DNA of 64,000 bases, from assembly GCA_017302795.1 (NCBI GenBank), contig JAFLCB010000006.1, forward strand, positions 62,001 through 126,000, read 5' to 3'. Positions within the stretch are counted from its first letter, which is position 1, and each line of letters starts with the position of its first letter. Shown here piece after piece: positions 6,242 to 49,766 of the stretch. The DNA is from Deltaproteobacteria bacterium (GTDB lineage: Bacteria > Bdellovibrionota > Bdellovibrionia > Bdellovibrionales > JAMPXM01). The position numbers were made by a program, and so were the translations under genes. The notes beneath the pieces are model-generated. The model worked only from the letters and a program-made list of their open reading frames with translations. It did no database searches and was not told where the DNA came from.

Positions 6242-6622
6242 GTGAAAACGTTTAAGACTCTTGAGATTCTAGTGGCGCTATTAATGAATTCTGCCTGCGC
6301 CACGATGTTCAATGGCTCTTCGGCTTCGGTCTCAATTCGGTCAGAAGACCCAAAGGCAAAGCTCTATTTAAATGACACCTATATCGGAACTGGCGGCGCC
6401 ACAGTATCAGTTGCGAAGAAGGGAAATCATTCGATCCGTGCAACGAAAGAAGGTTGCGGCGATGGGACGACTGCGATTCAGAAGAAGTTTGATCCGACCT
6501 CACTCTTGGGCGTTCTCATCGACTTTGGAATCGTGTCGATGTTGATCGTTGATGGCGCAGCCACAGGTGCAATCAGTGATATCGAGCCAAAGAACTATGT
6601 TGTAAATCCGAATTGTGGGTAG
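6242..6622 (+). CDS. Small putative lipoprotein with PEGA-like domain
   Basis: The gene starts with GTG after AAGGAGATAACAAA, a strong ribosome binding site. The first 18 residues form a short hydrophobic signal ending in NSAC, so Cys19 is a possible lipidation site, although Asn at -3 is not typical. Residues 30-60 (SVSIRSEDPKAKLYLND, then YIGTGGATVSV) match the pattern of PEGA-type surface domains. A hydrophobic segment follows near 85-105. It is probably an envelope protein. The export call is moderate; no function can be assigned. Confidence 0.65.
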   Translation: MKTFKTLEILVALLMNSACATMFNGSSASVSIRSEDPKAKLYLNDTYIGTGGATVSVAKKGNHSIRATKEGCGDGTTAIQKKFDPTSLLGVLIDFGIVSMLIVDGAATGAISDIEPKNYVVNPNCG

Positions 6623-9580: not shown

Positions 9581-10144
9581 TTACCAAGAAGTTTGAGTGA
9601 GCGTTAAAAGCGTCTCGTCGGTGTCTTCAGCAACTCCGTCGTTGTCAGTATCGTAGACCACATAGGCTGTGTTTGACGCTTTTACGTAAACTAGGAACGC
9701 TGCACGAAATCCAGATCCACGCGCGACGAAGTCAGACAGCTTGATGTAACCGCCTGTAATTGATCCTGGTAGAACGACGGTCACTGCGTTTTGATCTGTG
9801 TCGGTGTCGCCGCCGTTTGCATAGATCGTTGCAAAGGCCCCAAGTAGAATTATCGATCCATCTGAGTATTTGACGATTTGTCCCCCAGAAAAGAAACAGG
9901 AGTGTCCGACATACTCGATGCATAGGTCAGTTGTTGAACTACTTAGTCTGACGTTTGAAGTAACACTGAGGTCTGACGGATCCGGAGTCTCGGGCGCGGG
10001 AGTAGCCGGGGCGGCGGCTGCTGGGCTACCGCCTCCTCCGCCGCTACAGCCAATCGTCATCGTCGCAATTAGCGCCAATAGGCCAATAGAAGTGATTCGA
10101 CCCGAAGAGATTCGTATTGATAAGTTTGTAGCTACGTTCCGCAC
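9581..10144 (-). CDS. Secreted lipoprotein, function unknown
   Basis: The 187-residue product has a hydrophobic signal (about 20-32) ending in MTIGC, a good lipobox, followed by Gly5 and an Ala/Pro/Thr-rich spacer of about 25 residues. The rest looks beta-rich with an acidic Asp-repeat near the end (DTDNDGVAEDTDE), which resembles a calcium-binding or thrombospondin-3-like loop. Two Cys lie near residues 74 and 82. It is probably tethered to the outer membrane. The function is not known. Confidence 0.7.
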   Translation of the reverse strand: MRNVATNLSIRISSGRITSIGLLALIATMTIGCSGGGGGSPAAAAPATPAPETPDPSDLSVTSNVRLSSSTTDLCIEYVGHSCFFSGGQIVKYSDGSIILLGAFATIYANGGDTDTDQNAVTVVLPGSITGGYIKLSDFVARGSGFRAAFLVYVKASNTAYVVYDTDNDGVAEDTDETLLTLTQTSW

Positions 10145-12306: not shown

Positions 12307-13275
12307 CTACTCTAACCCAACACGGTCTTGAATCGTGGCAAAGCAATTTCGTACTTCTTTGAACTGAGGGAGATTTCCTTCGGGGATGACGATCTCTTTG
12401 AGATCAGCAGCAAAGAATCCTTCAACATTGTCCATTGCCGTTTTGGGGTTGGCGAACAATGGAGCTTCGACCAGCCGAGTGTCAGTCCATTTTGTGCGAC
12501 TCGCGAGTCGTTCATCTTGTCGGATTCGTCGGAGGTCATTTAAGAATTCCTGGGATAAGAGGTATTCTTCAAATTCTCGCTGAGAAAACAGCATCGTCAA
12601 ATCATAGAAGTGACGGACTCGACTTCGAAGCTCAATCGTCTTGTCCATTCCGTCTTGCATGCTTGCGTATGCGAGCGACAGTATCTTTTCAACGAAGGTG
12701 ATTTTCCAGTCCAATACCGAGATTTTAAATGGATGTAACGAGTATTCCTCGATCGTGCTTTGTGCGCCTATTGCCTCGAGGTGTTCTGTAATAAATGATG
12801 AAATTACCATCTGAAGTGCTGGAGTCGGATTTCCAAAGCAGTTTACTTCCAGCAGAAGTTGATCGCGAACAGGTCCAAAGTTTGTTCCGGCAATTGAGCG
12901 AGGGTATTCGTGCAGTGTTCGTCTCATGAGCCCCTTCTTGCTGGTGATACCGGGCTCTTCACGTTCGATGAATGGAGCAACCGTGACATCTTTCGCGATT
13001 TCCTTAATGAGTCTACCGATCGCGGCATCCGTCTTATTACCCTTCACGATCGCGATATCGACGTCTTCAGAGAAGCGCTTCACAACTTTGTATGCTTTGG
13101 AAAGAGATGTGCCACCTTTAAACACGAGTTCAGAAGACTTGGGGTGTGTGGATAGTCGTTTGAGCAGAAGTGAGACCCAATAGTCTTTCTCAACGTAAAC
13201 CGCCCGGATTTTCAAATTCTCCGCCGTCGCCTGAACGGCGTCTCGAAAATCTTGTTTGTTCTGGTGAAGATTCAA
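12307..13275 (-). CDS. abiEii: AbiEii-type nucleotidyltransferase toxin
   Basis: The 322-residue protein has the nucleotidyltransferase core of the AbiEii/AbiGii family: VEKDYWV at 28-34, FKGGTSLSK at 52-60, and FSEDVDIAI at 68-76, where Asp71 and Asp73 would bind metal. Known members are toxins that transfer nucleotides to tRNA or another acceptor and abort phage infection. The start overlaps the stop of the upstream antitoxin by four bases. The domain and residues appear complete, so the pair is probably functional. Confidence 0.9.
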   Translation of the reverse strand: MNLHQNKQDFRDAVQATAENLKIRAVYVEKDYWVSLLLKRLSTHPKSSELVFKGGTSLSKAYKVVKRFSEDVDIAIVKGNKTDAAIGRLIKEIAKDVTVAPFIEREEPGITSKKGLMRRTLHEYPRSIAGTNFGPVRDQLLLEVNCFGNPTPALQMVISSFITEHLEAIGAQSTIEEYSLHPFKISVLDWKITFVEKILSLAYASMQDGMDKTIELRSRVRHFYDLTMLFSQREFEEYLLSQEFLNDLRRIRQDERLASRTKWTDTRLVEAPLFANPKTAMDNVEGFFAADLKEIVIPEGNLPQFKEVRNCFATIQDRVGLE

Positions 13276-13991
13276 TCAATTCCCCATTCGGTTTTGTTGG
13301 GCAGGATATCAGACGATATTGAGAGGCGATACCTGGTTATCGGGTTAAGTGTCTCTTTAAGCTCGGTAGATAGACGTCTATCAGACTCCTGCAAAATCGC
13401 ACCGAGAAGTGCTCGAACGTATGGCCGTTCGTTTTTAGCTAAGCTTACGAGACGCTTTTTATCGACTTCCGACCGCCATTCGACGATTGATCGGACGCGC
13501 GTGATTGTTTTCGAAGTTGCTCCGTCTGGAGTTCTTCGAATGAGGCGTAGGGCCTCTAAGATATCAGTGAGATCCGCGTCTTTGATACCAGCCTTCTTGT
13601 TGCCTTGGCGTACAAGATTGATCGTTAGAGAGCCAATTTTGAGCTTTCGGGTAGAGCGAGCGCCTCGAATGCTGACGACTGATGGAACTTGGGTGGTTAC
13701 TCCGATTCGATTCAGTGCCGTATTACCTGCGAAGTAGCCTCCGCTTTCCTTTACGACTTGATCTAGAATTCTCCACTCGTCGGGGATGACTTCTCCGAAC
13801 TTCGTCTTTCGGGGAACGTAGTATTTCCCTTTTCCGAGACGAGCAATGCGTCCGCTCTTCTTGAGGCGACTAAGAGCAAGCAGCACGGCTTGCGGATTCC
13901 CGAGGTCGGCAAAGTCCTTCATTCCGAAGATTGTGGACTCAGGCAGGCTTTCGATTTTTCGAATGACTTCTCGTGTGATCACGCCCTTCAT
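13272..13991 (-). CDS. abiEi: AbiEi-type antitoxin, transcriptional regulator
   Basis: The 239-residue protein has an N-terminal winged-helix segment (about 5-60; SRLKKSGRIARLGKGKYYV is the recognition helix and wing) followed by the C-terminal antitoxin domain. Family members bind their own promoter and neutralise the AbiEii toxin by controlling its level. The A/T-rich region upstream (13992-14060), which includes TTGACATG on the minus strand, is the likely promoter and operator, but no clean -10 or inverted repeat pair could be fixed. It overlaps the toxin gene by four bases. Confidence 0.85.
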   Translation of the reverse strand: MKGVITREVIRKIESLPESTIFGMKDFADLGNPQAVLLALSRLKKSGRIARLGKGKYYVPRKTKFGEVIPDEWRILDQVVKESGGYFAGNTALNRIGVTTQVPSVVSIRGARSTRKLKIGSLTINLVRQGNKKAGIKDADLTDILEALRLIRRTPDGATSKTITRVRSIVEWRSEVDKKRLVSLAKNERPYVRALLGAILQESDRRLSTELKETLNPITRYRLSISSDILPNKTEWGID

Positions 13992-14603: not shown

Positions 14604-15923
14604 CTATCGCGGAAGGCCGATCGTTAATCTTGTTGCGCGGGCGCTAGGGTACTTTCGCACCACAACACATTCCCCAACGCCAAGCGACTTCACAACGTTC
14701 GGGTGGACATTGAATTCTTCGACTTCGCGAGAGCTACGCTTTCCGGTGTCAATCGAGATGCCTGCGAAGGATTCGGTTTGTCGAGTTTCTTTCCACGCGG
14801 TGCGAGTGCCTGCGATCCCAGAAATTAGTTCAGCAGACTCCGGCCGCTTTTGTAGAAACGCGAATAAGGTTGCAGTATTTCCCATTAGTCTCGCTGCAAA
14901 CTGCGGAGAAATGCGATCAAGGTCGGAAATCTCTTGGTGGGCGACGACGATGCCCATGCGACTGCTCCGGGCACGATCGAGGAAGCCGACGAATTCTTCG
15001 TCCGCGAGATCGGCAAACTCGTCGATGATGACGGTGAAAGGCTTTCGGTCGCTTGCTCGAACTTCGGAATCAATCCTCGCTGAAACGGATTTGAGATCTT
15101 GGATGATAAACCTCCCGATCGAACGAGCCGTTTCGCCGAATCGTCTGGTGTCTAAGAACATAAACGCGATCTTTCCTTTACGGACAGTTTCGAAAAGATC
15201 GATGGCGTCTGGCTGCGCTTTAACGCGATCACCAAAGTCGGAATAGACGATCGAGCTAAGCTGCACGCGTAAGCCTTGAAGGGATTTTGCGCCTTCCGGA
15301 CTTTTGAGAAGTGCGTGCGCCTCTTCAAAATGGAAATGAACCTTTTCTAGGTCGTCAGGAACTTGGGTGGAATATTCTGCGATAGCGTCAGAGGACCGCA
15401 CGCATTCTAAGATGACGCTGAGATCAAGTTTCATTGAGCGATTATCTCTTAGCCAAACAAGACCAATTAGCAGAGATAGAAGGAAACCAGCTGACTGGTT
15501 TTTGTAAAACTCTTCGCTCCAGATGAGAGAACCCATAATTCGGTCCCTGAGTTCTGTGGCAGAGCCATTGTTCAACAAATTGTAGCTAGAAGACTTGTCG
15601 TGCGCGCCCAAAGAGAAAACTTTTAGGTCATCCGTGCGACCTGCGGCCGCTACATACTTAGAAAACTGCTGAATGGTTTCAAGATCTCCTTTTTGATCGA
15701 TGAAAAGACATCCGTGGCCAGATTCAATGCGCGAGCGCAAAATATGAGAGATCAATACGGTCTTCCCGAATCCACTCGCCCCCACAATGTGGATGTGATG
15801 ACCAAGTTCCTTTTCGGTGATCCACTCCGCCGGGCGAAGAAATTTCTTTGCTCGTCCAATATGAACCGCTCCGCCAGACGGGACTAATCCAACATACTTT
15901 TTAAGTGTCTCGATGAAGTTCAT
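14604..15923 (-). CDS. VirD4/TraD-like type IV coupling ATPase
   Basis: The 439-residue protein has a Walker A GASGFGKT (48-55), a FIDQKGD segment near 73-79, a Walker B VIIDEFADL (297-305), and a later VAHQEISDLDR switch region. This is the layout of conjugative coupling proteins, which hand relaxase-bound DNA to a secretion channel. The usual N-terminal transmembrane pair is absent, since the Walker A lies only 48 residues in, so it may be a soluble TraD/MobB-type or an AAA+ of a mobilizable element. Its start overlaps the preceding gene by four bases. Confidence 0.85.
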   Translation of the reverse strand: MNFIETLKKYVGLVPSGGAVHIGRAKKFLRPAEWITEKELGHHIHIVGASGFGKTVLISHILRSRIESGHGCLFIDQKGDLETIQQFSKYVAAAGRTDDLKVFSLGAHDKSSSYNLLNNGSATELRDRIMGSLIWSEEFYKNQSAGFLLSLLIGLVWLRDNRSMKLDLSVILECVRSSDAIAEYSTQVPDDLEKVHFHFEEAHALLKSPEGAKSLQGLRVQLSSIVYSDFGDRVKAQPDAIDLFETVRKGKIAFMFLDTRRFGETARSIGRFIIQDLKSVSARIDSEVRASDRKPFTVIIDEFADLADEEFVGFLDRARSSRMGIVVAHQEISDLDRISPQFAARLMGNTATLFAFLQKRPESAELISGIAGTRTAWKETRQTESFAGISIDTGKRSSREVEEFNVHPNVVKSLGVGECVVVRKYPSARATRLTIGLPR

Positions 15924-16759
15924 GCGGAGACTCCTTTCGCTGCGGAAAATGGCTCCACCAAGCGAACTTCAAAAAGTCCGCCATAAATGCGGGTTTCGTC
16001 GCGCAATATTTCAAAAACAGGTTTTCGGTGACAGACGTAGATCACTTTTCTGATGCCATCTGGTTTCGAGCGCGATTCGCGGATGAGTCTCACATAGCGC
16101 GAGATCTTTTCTCGGTACCGAACGCGTGACTTCGTTGCGATCTCAAGTTCTAGTGCGACAACGCCCACTTGAGGTAACTTCACAACTGCATCAGGGACGT
16201 CGGAACCAAAGATGCCCAATGTCTCACTAATGCCTTGTTTAAGTCTTCGGTCAGAGATCCAAGCGACATCGCCGTGCTTTCGTTCAAAGTCCATTCTAAG
16301 CAGTAAAAGTTTGCGGTCGTGAACAAAGGTGCGGAGATCCAAACCGCCGGTGGGCTTCGGCCGTAAAACGGAAGGGGAGAATGAGTTTAAAAGATAGTAA
16401 GCTTTGAAAGTCGAGACGTAGACAAGTTCTTGAACACCGATACCGACCGTTGATTTTAGAAAACCAGATCTCGTAAGTTGCATGAGGCGACGTTTTGTCC
16501 ACTTGGTCGGGTGACCTACCTGAGGCAAGTCAGGTGAGCGCGCAAAGAACTTCTCGTATACCTCGGTGGCAGTAGCGAATTTCATATCGAGGATGAAATC
16601 GAGAACCTTTACGTCGCGCTCAACGATCTCAACCGTGGGCGACCGAGGTCGCCTTTTAAAAAACGAAAGCTGTTGCTCTCGTTTTTTCGGGGCGAAGCCC
16701 CCTTGTTCGGAGACGACAACTTCGACACTATCAGAATCTAACTTTTGGAAACTGGACAT
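15920..16759 (-). CDS. Replication-relaxation-type protein
   Basis: The 279-residue product has an N-terminal winged-helix unit at about 48-105 (RDVKVLDFILDMKFATATEVYEKFF, then KRRLMQLTRSGFL). A nuclease-like C-terminal half follows, with DVPDAVVKL and VALELEIATKSRVRYREKI, whose Asp, Glu-x-Glu and Lys resemble a PD-(D/E)XK site. This is the pattern of Replic_Relax proteins of mobile elements, which are thought to nick or bind the transfer or replication origin. It is co-transcribed with the coupling ATPase, and a dense inverted-repeat region lies just upstream. Confidence 0.75.
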   Translation of the reverse strand: MSSFQKLDSDSVEVVVSEQGGFAPKKREQQLSFFKRRPRSPTVEIVERDVKVLDFILDMKFATATEVYEKFFARSPDLPQVGHPTKWTKRRLMQLTRSGFLKSTVGIGVQELVYVSTFKAYYLLNSFSPSVLRPKPTGGLDLRTFVHDRKLLLLRMDFERKHGDVAWISDRRLKQGISETLGIFGSDVPDAVVKLPQVGVVALELEIATKSRVRYREKISRYVRLIRESRSKPDGIRKVIYVCHRKPVFEILRDETRIYGGLFEVRLVEPFSAAKGVSA

Positions 16760-16818
16760 CGAAACTACCTCTTGGATTCTCCGTTCCCTTCCCCCTTTGC
16801 TAAAAAATTGGAACCCAA

Positions 16819-16974
16819 GGCCCGCCCTCTTTCAGACAACTGTCTGACTAGCACTGACTAGCTTCTTTGTTCCTGACCACCTGCCATCACTCGTTGAGGG
16901 CGGGTGGTCAGGAACAAAACGGAAGCTACCAAAGTGCGCATCCCGAGCCTTTTGAAAGGCTTAGAGGGCGGGCC
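16819..16974. repeat. Nested inverted-repeat cluster, candidate oriT or replication site
   Basis: Outer arms GGCCCGCCCTCT (16819-16830) and AGAGGGCGGGCC (16963-16974) are perfect 12-bp complements. Inside, CAGACA/TGTCTG (16833-16846) and a 16-bp perfect pair TTTGTTCCTGACCACC / GGTGGTCAGGAACAAA (16866-16881/16903-16918) occur. The latter is extended by TAGCTTC/GAAGCTA (16859-16865/16922-16928) across a 3-base bulge. AGCCTTTTGAAAGGCT (16946-16961) is a further hairpin. The cluster lies between the tRNA and the Replic_Relax gene, in a 448-base stretch without a gene. Confidence 0.7.
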
Positions 16975-17084
16975 GTGGCTCCAAAGCAGCGGAGCAAAGA
17001 ACTGTGTTGAGAACTGGGTTGGGCCCATCTACCAGGCGGTAGGCTTCGGATCGTGCTAGTCTAACCGTAGTCAAAGCTAGTCAG
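16844..17084. repeat. Iterated CTGACTAGC sites
   Basis: CTGACTAGC occurs twice in direct orientation (16844-16852, 16854-16862), once inverted as GCTAGTCAG (17076-17084), and once as a shorter inverted GCTAGTC (17055-17061). The spacing and orientation suggest binding sites for the element's own Rep or relaxase protein. The rest of 16975-17207 holds only small palindromes such as CTTTTCCTAGGGAAAG and AAGTCACTGAAAGGACTT. Confidence 0.6.
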
Positions 17085-17207: not shown

Positions 17208-17285
17208 TGGGGTGAATGACGGGACTTGAACCCGCGACCCTCGGAATCACAATCCGATGCTCTAACCAACTGAGCTACAATCACC
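17208..17285 (-). tRNA. tRNA-His (anticodon GTG)
   Basis: Read on the minus strand this is a complete cloverleaf with encoded CCA. It has the extra 5' G-1 opposite C73 that marks tRNA-His, D-arm GCTCAGTTGGTTAGAGC, anticodon loop TTGTGAT, and T-arm GCGGGTTCAAGTCCCGT. The acceptor stem GTGATTG/CATTCAC has one U-U mismatch at position 5:68. The next gene on the minus strand is 450 bases further left, so the element lies directly at the 3' end of this tRNA. Confidence 0.95.
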
Positions 17286-18432: not shown

Positions 18433-21400
18433 TCACTGGAATCGAACTCTTGGAACTAGTTGAGGTACGCGCGACGTGTAGCCCAGCGGAAGCTGTCCAT
18501 CATCTGCAGCACCACGACAGCGCCAGTATCCAGCGGACGGTTTTGCACATGTTTGAAGTTCGCCAGTTTCAACTGCGGTAAATGTACCGGCTTCAAATAA
18601 ACTAGGGGAAACGACAGGTGCGACAGCAGGAAAGTTTTGGCCAAAAACGGAAGCTCCCCAGCAGTTGACCGTGTTCGCGTTGGTCAGTGCGCAAACATGT
18701 GTACCTGGTCCGTTAGTCTTCATGTTTTTACCGACCTTGACGTCGATGTAAGTACCGCCCACCATCATCGGCGAAGTATATTGCGGAGGAGAAGTTGCAC
18801 CCTGTCCGATTTCGGCAGAAGCGTTTCGTCCCCAACAATATAAGCTACTCCCACTATTGATGTAGCAGGTCGCTTCCGCGCCAACTGAAACTTTTTGAAC
18901 ACTGGAGACGACCAGAAACGGTGTTGTGACATTGACTGTTGTGCCGTCGCCAACTTGCCCTTTATTGTTGTTGCCCCAGCAATAGAGATCGTTAGCAACA
19001 GTAACTGCGCATGCCGTGTTCGCACCAACGCTGACTGATGAAAAATCAGTCACTGGCATAACTGACTGAGGCAAATCGTGACTAGTCGTTGATCCAAGAC
19101 CAAGCTGCCCATCCGCGTTGTTACCCCAGCAAAATAGCTTGTTCGACATATCGATCGCGCAAGTCGATGTAGTGCCAACGGAAACAGAAAGGAAACCCGC
19201 CGCGACCGGCACAGGCAAATTCTGTCCAATTGTATTTCCGATCCCAAGTTGACCACCCGTGTTCATGCCCCAGCATTTCAGCAAGTTGGAAGTCGTAATT
19301 CCGCAGGTGTGACGGGTGCCAAAAGAAACCGAGGAATATGTAACACCCGGATCGACGTGAACCATTGCGTCTCGCGTGATCGTCGTTCCGTCGCCCACAT
19401 TGCCCGTCGCGAAAATAGAGTCCAGATCGTTCGCACCCCAGCACCAAAGAGCTCCAGCGGGTGTTATGCCGCATCCGCCGCGGCCAAGACTGACTGATGC
19501 GAAATCAACAAGCGGGGCCAAGGCGACGATAGCAGTTTTGCTAATGTTCCCAGTTCCCAGGTGGTTGTTACTGTTGCCGCCCCAACAAAATCCTTTACCT
19601 TGGCTGACCGCACAGGCGTTCGTGGCATTCAGCGAAAAATGAGTTGTCATGCCCGGGAGCAATGAAGCATCCACAGGTGTCATGCTTGAGCCTCTTCTTA
19701 CTCCGTCACCAAGAAGCCCGTAGTAGCCATAGCCCCAGCATTTTAAGCGACTATCCGCCTGATCAATTCCACAGGTTGTGTTTGCACCGGCTTTAATGGA
19801 ATTGAAATTGTAGGCAGCCTGAGAGGCGATCGGAAGGGACGAGTTTGTGCCGGCTCCTTGCCCAAGTTTTCCGGAGGAACCTTGGCCCCAGCAAAACGCT
19901 TTTCCGTCTGCCCGCAGAGTACAAGTGTAGTATTGGCCACCAGTAACTTGTACCATTCCTCCGCCGGTCACTATTTCAAGTGGTGTTAAGACGTCCGTGG
20001 TATTGCCGTTTCCAATTTGCCCAATAGAGTTGCCACCCCAGCATAAAGTCGCTCCATCACTTCGAATAGCGCAAGCATGGTCATAGCCGACCGATACATC
20101 AACAGCCGTTCCACCAATGCTGATCGCGACTGGTAGCAACGCATCGCCGGCTGATAAATTATTTCCAACTCGTCCATTGTTTTGGCTGCCCCAACATTTA
20201 ACGGACCCATCGGTTTTTAGGCCGCATGCGGAACTGAGCCCATTCGCCACTTTGACATAACCTGTTCCAGTCAAAGTAGGAACATTCATGGAAATGAGGT
20301 TCCCAATTCCAAGCTGGCCGGTTGTGTTGTTCCCCCAGCAATAAAGTGAATTATCAGTTCGGATGGCGCATGTTGAATAGTTTCCGACTGCCACTTCCAA
20401 GTAGTTGTTAGCGGCATCAATCGGCACAGGGTAAAGCTGATCAACGTTACCGCCGCCATCACCGAGTGCGCCACTTGTGTCGCGCCCCCAACAAAAGAGT
20501 TTTCCGGCAATCGAAATTCCGCAGCTATGGGTGCTGCCGACGACAATTTTATCGAGTGGAGTAGGGGCAAAGTCAAAATCCTCAATCCAAAGCTCATGCA
20601 CTTGCTTTTCGCCGATTTGAATTCCTTGGGTGTTGGGTGAACCTTTCAAAGAAACGGAGAGTCGTTTCTCTAAATTTCCCACGCTCCCGCCAATCACGCT
20701 GACATCAACTGAATGAGAACTGGTGAAAGCAGGTACCATAATGTTTTCCCGACCCAGGAAAAATCCGCTGTACTGAATTCCTTGCGAAGCAGTACCTTGA
20801 ACTTCGATGTCGAGCGAAACCGGCGTTGAAAGAATCGGTGATATGTCGATTGCAAGACTTCGCAGTCCGACATTTTCCGGCGCCGATGACCATCGTTCGA
20901 CAAAGGAAATTACGACAGGTCCCTTTGTAAGGCGTTCGATCGTCGGCGTTGCAACGATCTGTTCGTTTCCTGCCGCGTCGATTCCTATAACACAGACGAA
21001 ATAAAGTGCAGGCGTAGGAGTCGAGACATCCAAAGGTGTCGCGACTGGTAGTGATGCAGAGTAATTGCCGATATTCATACAGTCAGATTGTGTAATGTTT
21101 GAAACCGCATACCGATATTGAACGACATCCCCGGGGCTCACTGTCAGCCCAACACTTGTTCCAAGTACGATGCTGGTCGGTAGACCTGTAACCACTGCTG
21201 TGGGCGGAGTCGCATCTTTTGTGGCAATGACTGCGTTCGACCCATAATTTCCAACGCTATCTAAAATGTCAGCCGCGATCGGCAGCGAGCCATCGACTTC
21301 CGCTGTGACATTCACGTTTGTCGAATAGACGCCACCCGCGCAAGTCGCCGAACCGAGTGTACTACCTAGGGTCAGATTGACAGCAGCGCCATTGTCAGAA

Positions 21401-22668
21401 CAAGTTCCGCTGACGTTTAAACTTACGGAGCCGGTCGCATTTACTACCGACGCATTGACAGGTTGGGTGATGGTCACCGTCGGCACGACGACATCTTTAA
21501 AAACTGTATCTGAACCGTTTCCGGAATTTCCTGCTGGATCCGTCGATACGACAGTAAGGGTCGCTGCGCCATCCGCAAGGGCCGCGAGATCTATTCCTGC
21601 AACAGCGTATACGCCAGATGAACACACCGTCGATCCGTTTATGGCGCCGATGGTCCAATTGACCGCGAGTCCGTCATCTGAACAGGTCCCGCTAAATCCA
21701 AACGTTGAAACGGAAAGTGCGTTCACGTCGGAGGCAGGCGTGAGGCTTATTGCCGGTGCAGTTTGATCTAAAATGATCGCGTTTGAGAGGCATGAAGAAA
21801 CCGATCCAGATGAATCTCGAAACTTTGCGTAAACCGATTTCGGGCCGTCCCCCGAGGTAAGGGCAAAGCCAGATGTTGTCGGGGAGTACGGTTGCCAAGT
21901 GCCACCGCCTGAACAAGTCGAGTTCGTCGTGTAATAAGCTTCGCTTGCAATAAAGGGAAGTGAGTTGGTGATAGTGACGTTGAGACTGTTAGTATAGTTG
22001 GCGCCCGAATTGAGTGTAAAGGTTCCGCCTGTCAATGGCGGGGGCGTTTGCCATTCGCAATTGTCATAGGCCGTGCTGGTAGCGAAGCTACCCGTGATTT
22101 CAATGTTGTTGATACCTGAAACGATGTTCGCTTTTTTGGATCCGATGTGAAGTGGGCCCGACAGTGAGGTCTTTCGAATTAATGAACCGACGGTGGTGAT
22201 CTGGCATTCTCCAGAAGACTCGGCCGCGAATGCGAACAAATGAAATGTTCTATTCGGCCCAGGCGCGACGTTGAGCTCGATCTCGCTTCCGGCAGGCGCA
22301 AGTCCCGCAAATTGCGAAACAGCAATATTCTTTTCAGGAGCCGAATCTACAGTGCACTGCTGGGTAGCAAGCGTGGAAGTCGAACCTTCTGGAATTTCTA
22401 CAACAACAGCGAAGCACTTTGTTTCAGCTAACGAGGCGGGGTGTGCAACACCCCAATCTGCTGCAGACATTGCTTCCAGTTTTGCGATTTTCGCAAAATG
22501 GTCTTTTGCTTCAGGCTGGGTACTGGCGGGAAGTCGAACGATGACTTGAGAACTGTTTTCCGGTTTTCGGGTACAGCTCAAAACGGAAACGGAAACAACG
22601 GCCGCAAGTAGCACGGCGTAGCCTCGGGTCGGACGACGAATAGCATTTAGACTTCTGAAAAGCATCAA
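18433..22668 (-). CDS. Large lipoprotein with Ig-like domains and 14 RCC1-type repeats
   Basis: The 1411-residue protein has a signal ending in VLSC with Cys32 as lipidation site. Residues about 215-300 resemble a chitobiase-type carbohydrate-binding domain (YYTTNSTCSGGGTWQPY), followed by two or three bacterial Ig-like domains with the DPAGNSG / DSVGNYG pattern. A linker follows at about 600-690. The remaining 700 residues hold 14 repeats of the form C-[AG]-I-x-x-x-x-x-L-x-CWG-x-N-x-x-GQLG-x-G, the RCC1 propeller unit, which would fold as two seven-bladed propellers. It is probably an outer-membrane surface protein. Confidence 0.9.
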   Translation of the reverse strand: MMLFRSLNAIRRPTRGYAVLLAAVVSVSVLSCTRKPENSSQVIVRLPASTQPEAKDHFAKIAKLEAMSAADWGVAHPASLAETKCFAVVVEIPEGSTSTLATQQCTVDSAPEKNIAVSQFAGLAPAGSEIELNVAPGPNRTFHLFAFAAESSGECQITTVGSLIRKTSLSGPLHIGSKKANIVSGINNIEITGSFATSTAYDNCEWQTPPPLTGGTFTLNSGANYTNSLNVTITNSLPFIASEAYYTTNSTCSGGGTWQPYSPTTSGFALTSGDGPKSVYAKFRDSSGSVSSCLSNAIILDQTAPAISLTPASDVNALSVSTFGFSGTCSDDGLAVNWTIGAINGSTVCSSGVYAVAGIDLAALADGAATLTVVSTDPAGNSGNGSDTVFKDVVVPTVTITQPVNASVVNATGSVSLNVSGTCSDNGAAVNLTLGSTLGSATCAGGVYSTNVNVTAEVDGSLPIAADILDSVGNYGSNAVIATKDATPPTAVVTGLPTSIVLGTSVGLTVSPGDVVQYRYAVSNITQSDCMNIGNYSASLPVATPLDVSTPTPALYFVCVIGIDAAGNEQIVATPTIERLTKGPVVISFVERWSSAPENVGLRSLAIDISPILSTPVSLDIEVQGTASQGIQYSGFFLGRENIMVPAFTSSHSVDVSVIGGSVGNLEKRLSVSLKGSPNTQGIQIGEKQVHELWIEDFDFAPTPLDKIVVGSTHSCGISIAGKLFCWGRDTSGALGDGGGNVDQLYPVPIDAANNYLEVAVGNYSTCAIRTDNSLYCWGNNTTGQLGIGNLISMNVPTLTGTGYVKVANGLSSACGLKTDGSVKCWGSQNNGRVGNNLSAGDALLPVAISIGGTAVDVSVGYDHACAIRSDGATLCWGGNSIGQIGNGNTTDVLTPLEIVTGGGMVQVTGGQYYTCTLRADGKAFCWGQGSSGKLGQGAGTNSSLPIASQAAYNFNSIKAGANTTCGIDQADSRLKCWGYGYYGLLGDGVRRGSSMTPVDASLLPGMTTHFSLNATNACAVSQGKGFCWGGNSNNHLGTGNISKTAIVALAPLVDFASVSLGRGGCGITPAGALWCWGANDLDSIFATGNVGDGTTITRDAMVHVDPGVTYSSVSFGTRHTCGITTSNLLKCWGMNTGGQLGIGNTIGQNLPVPVAAGFLSVSVGTTSTCAIDMSNKLFCWGNNADGQLGLGSTTSHDLPQSVMPVTDFSSVSVGANTACAVTVANDLYCWGNNNKGQVGDGTTVNVTTPFLVVSSVQKVSVGAEATCYINSGSSLYCWGRNASAEIGQGATSPPQYTSPMMVGGTYIDVKVGKNMKTNGPGTHVCALTNANTVNCWGASVFGQNFPAVAPVVSPSLFEAGTFTAVETGELQTCAKPSAGYWRCRGAADDGQLPLGYTSRVPQLVPRVRFQ

Positions 22669-29702: not shown

Positions 29703-29757
29703 GCCGGCGCCCGTACCTTTTGGCGCGGCGCATCTCCAAAATGTAGGCGGTACCTAG
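29703..29757 (-). repeat. Copy 2 of the 3'-end repeat
   Basis: GTACCTTTTGG is followed by GCGGCGCATCTCCAAAATG and TAGGCGGTACC, so the two ends can pair (GTACC-TTTTGG with CCAAAA...GGTAC). The stop codon TAG of the cytochrome gene falls within the last bases. It matches copy 1 at 28676-28710. Confidence 0.55.
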
Positions 29758-49708: not shown

Positions 49709-49715
49709 CAGCGCA

Positions 49716-49756
49716 CCGCACTACCAAAAGGTACCGCCTACCTTTTGGTAGTGCGG
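49716..49756. terminator. 18-bp hairpin between convergent genes, repeat copy 3
   Basis: CCGCACTACCAAAAGGTA pairs perfectly with TACCTTTTGGTAGTGCGG around CCGCC. T-rich sequence (CCTTTTGG) follows on the plus strand. It lies 8 bases after the stop of the desaturase gene and 11 before that of the DadA-like gene, so it probably ends both. The minus strand reads GTAGGCGGTACC as at 29740. Confidence 0.8.
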
Positions 49757-49766
49757 CGCCTTTTGG

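Follow-up and report, generated by a model that had tools for sequence, protein, structure and literature searches.

The window, by which we mean the whole 64,000-nucleotide stretch that was analysed, contains a short mobilization module next to a tRNA gene. A mobC-like gene (15920–16759, minus strand) for a putative MOBC/Replic_Relax relaxase of 279 aa is followed by a mobB-like gene (14604–15923, minus strand) encoding a 439 aa VirD4/TraD-type coupling ATPase with TraG-D_C and TrwB domains, and then by an AbiEi/AbiEii toxin-antitoxin (phage defence) pair (12307–13991, minus strand) that is likely cargo of the element. On the other side lies tRNA-His (17208–17284, minus strand), with its 3′ end facing the candidate transfer origin (oriT), approximately 300 bp away. 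Adjoining tRNA-His is a protein of 1411 aa (18433–22668) that combines numerous RCC1 repeats with a bacterial Ig domain, and a 1425 aa ORF was found at the matching place in the related locus L054. A set of repeats occupies the interval from the mobC-like start (16759) to tRNA-His (17208).

The outer inverted repeat, here called IR1-like, consists of GGCCCGCCCTCT (16819–16830, plus strand) and AGAGGGCGGGCC (16963–16974, plus strand). The arms match perfectly over 12 bp, as the first-pass annotation had claimed, and are 83% identical over 23 nt, with imperfect extensions from 16808 and to 16985. Nested within it is the inner, IR2-like repeat, made up of TTTGTTCCTGACCACC (16866–16881, plus strand), which contains the conserved core CTGACCACC, and GGTGGTCAGGAACAAA (16903–16918, plus strand), which contains GGTGGTCAG. 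The 16 bp stem with an extension that had been described here was likewise recovered, being perfect over 16 bp and 92% paired over 24 nt with a 5 nt loop, though its continuation to the apex is imperfect. The sequence CTCGTTGAGGGCGGGTGGTC (16890–16909, plus strand) covers the conserved apex and the putative nic region. Two small hairpins lie within the outer arms, TCAGAC-AACT-GTCTGA (16832–16847, plus strand) and AGCCTTTTGAAAGGCT (16946–16961, plus strand). The latter is one of the two originally noted and is real, but the other, TACCAGGCGGTA (17030–17041), has a stem of only 4 bp and is trivial.

When the gap was shuffled preserving dinucleotides, two stems of at least 12 bp never occurred at once in 300 shuffles, and one such stem occurred in two. 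Folded as single-stranded DNA, positions 16815–16980 gave −59.3 kcal/mol vs −24.4±3.25 (z=−10.75). In an Rfam search the tRNA was the sole match, with no other at gathering score or above chance. No T-run follows the end of the stem, and a terminator reading of the hairpin was rejected. The claim that this gap holds far more structure than any other in the window is nearly right; an 18 bp stem is found at 49716–49756, but it is un-nested. This second strong hairpin (49713–49759), with the perfect stem CCGCACTACCAAAAGGTA, is partly repeated at 29725–29755 and on another contig of the same genome, C16 (L008, 19821–19877), and looks like a dispersed extragenic palindrome.

The four short sites described as iterons were recovered as three exact copies of CTGACTAGC, at 16844–16852 and 16854–16862 on the plus strand and at 17076–17084 on the minus strand, while the fourth is only partial (17053–17061, reading GACTAGCAC on the minus strand). 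Against an expectation of 0.15 in 64 kb the exact copies number three, a count that none of 100 shuffles reached; with one mismatch allowed, the window total of 12 vs 7.8 expected is unremarkable. In the closest relatives no CTGACTAGC site was seen alongside the hairpin, and general iterons were rejected on this ground. The repeats are thus real but specific to the element in the window. They could be sites for the relaxase or an accessory protein, loosely like those of pAD1 TraX, and the first of them is a candidate MobC/accessory or integrase arm site. It is possible that these sites alone are integrase arm sites of attP type.

The 279 aa protein matched the NCBIfam MobC profile NF041423 with E=6.8e-8, at 32 bits against a curated cut-off of 200, and matched Pfam Replic_Relax weakly (E=0.0011, under the gathering score). 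The relaxase-family profile also matched two CloDF13 reading frames in the mob region (E 3e-5 and 9e-5), which is presumably where MobC lies. Across 26 homologues the residues H147 D148, P189 D190, E204, E206, K210, R214 and Y215 are invariant (HD, PD, ExE, K and RY). An AlphaFold model, with a mean pLDDT of 81, divides into a winged-helix half and a nuclease half. Its Foldseek matches took in restriction and nicking endonucleases and included BstEII, EcoO109I, Nt.BspD6I and EndoMS, but all were weak (E no better than 0.0045, with nothing at 0.001 or below). PF13814 has been equated with MobC (PMC5357655), MOBC relaxases are PD-(D/E)XK nucleases (PMC12857230) and MOBC1 plasmids are known to carry their own coupling protein (PMC7431656). 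Judged from its sequence, the protein is a divergent member of the MobC/Replic_Relax relaxase family. A coupling protein gene adjoins mobC in the window, and a coupling protein was linked to a relaxase at 25 of 44 hairpin sites; nearly all of the coupling-protein homologues with names belong to records that carry the label Bdellovibrionota or that of one of its orders. Five loci (L115, L116, L119, L120 and L122) have a second MobC-like gene in tandem straight after the first, possibly forming a heteromeric relaxase.

The first-pass annotation had proposed a search for the same repeats elsewhere. The strict pattern CTGACCACC-N-GGTGGTCAG was found in 31 of 148 relatives, normally adjoining a relaxase gene, and in none with a reversed-pattern control. 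The 4.2 Mb genome that contains the window has four hairpin copies: that in the window, one on contig C23 beside a type IV secretion system (T4SS) operon, and those on contigs C10 and C16, which sit in two related 5 kb elements. All four are in mobile-element settings, which is not what common, unrelated intergenic elements would look like. A scan of IMG/VR with the exact pattern served as a specificity control; the 47 contigs found had arm extensions of 0–4 bp and no MOBC gene, and the apex motif was present in two. A family of IMG/VR contigs (L179, L183, L186, L208 and others) contains two CTGACCACC...GGTGGTCAG repeats 154 bp apart. Contigs of this type have neither the apex motif nor a MOBC gene and are unrelated.

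Pairing in the stem is conserved beyond the sequence itself. Among 38 distinct hairpins, outer pairs 1–7 are Watson-Crick in 35–38, and as many as four kinds of pair occur at a position; pair 5, for example, is C-G in 22, G-C in 11, A-T in four and T-A in one. For pairs 5–14, beyond the core, the total was 220 vs 132±8 when right arms were swapped between sequences. The core itself varies while still pairing (GACCACC/GGTGGTC, CACCACC/GGTGGTG, AACCACC/GGTGGTT, GTCCACC/GGTGGAC, GACCACT/AGTGGTC and GGCCACC/GGTGGCC). In distant homologues the GACCACC core is lost and the arms are wholly different, but a 15–23 bp stem and a TCGTWGGG-type apex are kept. Nested outer arms scoring at least 10 were found around 30 of 37 hairpins vs 7% of swapped-flank controls. 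No G-U pair occurs in the 342 cells of outer pairs 1–9, and this points to DNA, not RNA, as the conserved molecule.

The position of the hairpin relative to mobC is also regular. It usually lies about 60–180 bp before the start of window-type mobC genes, or about 110 bp in window-type elements, and about 90 bp past the mobC stop codon in T4SS-type elements. An ORF running over the hairpin in the T4SS elements (cluster 14) was rejected as a gene, the frame shifting past the hairpin between L044 and L081/L046. To guard against circularity, 20 loci were picked by relaxase profile alone, and 17–18 of these had a hairpin no more than about 320 bp from the relaxase gene; among the loci lacking one, one was masked and one ended at a contig edge. 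Conversely, no relaxase was detected near 17 of 44 hairpin sites, some of which are at contig ends and others in relaxase-less elements. In the Bdellovibrio plasmids pBdHAGR1, 4 and 5 (L157, L159 and L158, respectively) the hairpins adjoin MOBC genes. These three are complete plasmids that MOB-suite calls non-mobilizable despite the MOBC relaxases they encode.

Comparison with known MOBC systems revealed a shared architecture. Like the window, the MOBC1 mobilizable plasmid CloDF13 has nested inverted repeats, the outer CCGGCCCCCGTCAG/CTGACGGGGGCCGG and the inner CTGACCACCC/GGGTGGTCGGG, upstream of mobB-mobC, with the coupling protein and MOBC relaxase genes on the strand opposite the GGGTGGTC arm. 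The two differ in that mobB precedes mobC in CloDF13 and mobC precedes mobB in the window, that the inner arms are about 60 bp apart in CloDF13 rather than forming a compact hairpin with a 21 nt apex, and that the relaxases are only remotely alike. Three further plasmids, all typed MOBC, are nested in the same way, namely pPA21A (Pectobacterium), pF1917-3 (Citrobacter freundii) and a Yersinia massiliensis plasmid. Their inner arms are GTGACCACCCCC/GGGGGTGGTCAC or TTGACCACCC/GGGTGGTCAA, with GACCACCC/GGGTGGTC in common, and the inner-arm core GACCACC(C)/(G)GGTGGTC is common to the MOBC plasmids CloDF13, pPA21A and those of Y. massiliensis and C. freundii. A TCGTAA-GGGGGTGGTC motif in pPA21A is close to TCGTTGAGGGCGGGTGGTC in the window, and when CTCGTTGAGGGCGGGTGGTCAGG from the window was aligned with CTCGTAACGGGGGTGGTCACG from pPA21A they had TCGT and GGGTGGTC in common. 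However, the TCGT-type motif is on both arms in pPA21A-type plasmids, giving two possible nic sites, whereas its TCGT part is on one arm only in the window.

We take the CloDF13 nic to be GGGTG/GTCGGG, and the sequence GGGTGGTCGGG is present in CloDF13 at 9752. If this is right, the corresponding nick in the window would separate 16906 from 16907 on the plus strand. For pMET1, two possible nic sites have been reported, the nic lies inside IR2 and the order oriT-mobB-mobC was noted as CloDF13-like (PMC2262945). The Vibrio MOBC plasmid p23023 has no such nested repeat, so the rule is not universal. The enterococcal MOBC system TraX/oriT2 of pAD1 has a PD-(D/E)XK active site and a bind site of short direct repeats 70–120 bp from nic (PMC12857230). 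These loosely recall the CTGACTAGC-type sites in the window, but the latter comprise two direct and two inverted copies, unlike the direct repeats of pAD1.

Several elements have the hairpin and a recombinase but lack a relaxase. L053 is bounded by 46 bp repeats of the 3′ end of tRNA-Met (6282–6327 and 12775–12820) and includes a tyrosine integrase and a hairpin at 10069, while L076 has an 18 bp repeat at tRNA-Gly (8333/14223), an integrase and a hairpin at 10087. In L053, L076, L008, L009 and L069 there was no match to MOBC or coupling proteins at E<1. L048 has the hairpin and a large serine recombinase without a relaxase, and L069 and L076 appear to derive by reduction from the T4SS element present in L070. 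Large serine recombinases were found in a number of T4SS- or hairpin-bearing elements of Bdellovibrionales (L044, L046, L048, L063, L079 and L081), while tyrosine integrases serve other elements that have this hairpin. An integrase and a hairpin without a relaxase is the combination to be expected if the site acts in cis and can be used in trans. OriT-only satellites and relaxase-less integrative mobilizable elements (IMEs) are an established concept (PMC8136818, PMC5357655). Like the staphylococcal oriT mimics and relaxase-less IMEs, L053, L076, L048 and L008 combine a hairpin (the putative oriT) and a recombinase with no relaxase; they differ in being hosted by Bdellovibrionales, where the helper would be a MOBC system.

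No match to the integrases of related elements was found anywhere in the window, and a genome-wide search allowing three mismatches did not recover the tRNA-His 3′ end a second time. The module is present beside tRNA-His in several genera and absent there in others. This patchy occupancy suggests mobility, and tRNA-His is a probable integration neighbourhood. The element may have decayed or may use an unrecognised enzyme. In a congener (L163, G001:C157) a short tandem repeat, GATCTTGCCCATTAACGGGGGCACTTCG, is found downstream of tRNA-His.

Taken with the MOBC-type relaxase, the linkage of hairpin and MOBC genes across the Bdellovibrionales, and the core and nesting shared with gammaproteobacterial plasmids argue strongly for what the first-pass annotation had implied, namely a region of transfer origin on which the neighbouring Replic_Relax protein acts. 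The segment 16819–16974 is very probably the oriT of a MOBC-type mobilization module. Both its sequence and its layout, with a putatively nic-bearing inverted repeat (IR2) beside mob genes, match CloDF13 and other MOBC plasmids, and we infer binding, nicking, strand and transfer from the anatomy, the structural conservation, the co-occurrence and this shared architecture. The MobC-like protein, with its predicted winged helix and PD-(D/E)XK nuclease, would recognise the inner hairpin and nick one strand in or near the GGGTGGTC arm. MOBC modules are expected to nick in a strand-specific way, with no covalent adduct formed, and to be mobilized through a helper T4SS. The MobB-like coupling ATPase would then aid relaxation and deliver the cut strand to the channel of a type IV secretion system, which may be supplied in trans, for example by the conjugative element that C23 carries in this genome. 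The outer repeat would frame the site, with a role perhaps in relaxosome assembly or in ending transfer. Elements with a hairpin and only an integrase would probably be mobilized in trans by such modules.

A replication origin of the excised element, either a rolling-circle double-strand origin or a theta iteron origin, initiated by the Replic_Relax protein, is very unlikely. The family name and the short CTGACTAGC repeats are compatible with it, and MOBC proteins have been discussed as possible rolling-circle initiators (PMC5714925). However, the relaxase is usually accompanied by a coupling ATPase, known MOBC sites of such layout are oriTs, and the CTGACTAGC repeats are unconserved beside other hairpin copies. 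A nick at an oriT can also start replication, and the two readings are not exclusive.

There is only a slim chance that the hairpin belongs to a regulatory RNA leader that attenuates or autoregulates mobC/mobB from within the mob operon transcript. Its location upstream of mobC in window-type elements would fit, but it is past the mobC stop codon in T4SS elements, and the lack of an Rfam match above chance, of a T-run after the stem and of G-U pairs, the last unlike most RNA helices, all count against a leader. The hairpin-bearing elements without mob genes are a strong argument against a leader and equally against an attP or other site-specific recombination site, or accessory arm sites for the integrase of the element. 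The proximity of tRNA-His and the short direct and inverted repeats that flank the hairpin in the manner of integrase arm sites fit the recombination reading. It is nevertheless very improbable, as the att repeats in L053 and L076 are kilobases away from the hairpin and the same hairpin is common to tyrosine- and serine-recombinase elements. That the hairpin is a dispersed extragenic palindrome, REP-like or otherwise, playing no part in transfer, is scarcely credible, for although it is palindromic, recurrent and intergenic, its copies in this genome are far from the many that mark REP/RAYT elements, it is absent from most relatives, and it exhibits compensatory change and a fixed position relative to mobC.

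Descriptions of MOBC transfer origins are limited to a handful of plasmids, and the MOBC-type oriT proposed here would, as far as the literature searched shows, be a compact form that is new for Bdellovibrionota. The mechanism by which a nuclease-like, non-HUH relaxase cuts DNA and reseals it has yet to be settled (PMC12857230). The motif, which varies in a compensatory manner throughout an order and is common to gammaproteobacterial plasmids, provides a wealth of natural variants on which binding and nicking could be tested. It could also help to identify mobilizable elements overlooked by typing tools, such as the three Bdellovibrio plasmids mentioned above. On balance, we favour the view that a network of MOBC conjugation extends through the whole order Bdellovibrionales (predatory bacteria and their relatives), its oriT being a compact hairpin with a single nic. 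In this view, several independent lineages of integrated elements with tyrosine or serine recombinases have dropped all transfer genes, kept only the oriT and rely on MOBC modules like that in the window for mobilization in trans. Such a network would be a possible route by which defence genes such as AbiE and other cargo move among predatory bacteria.
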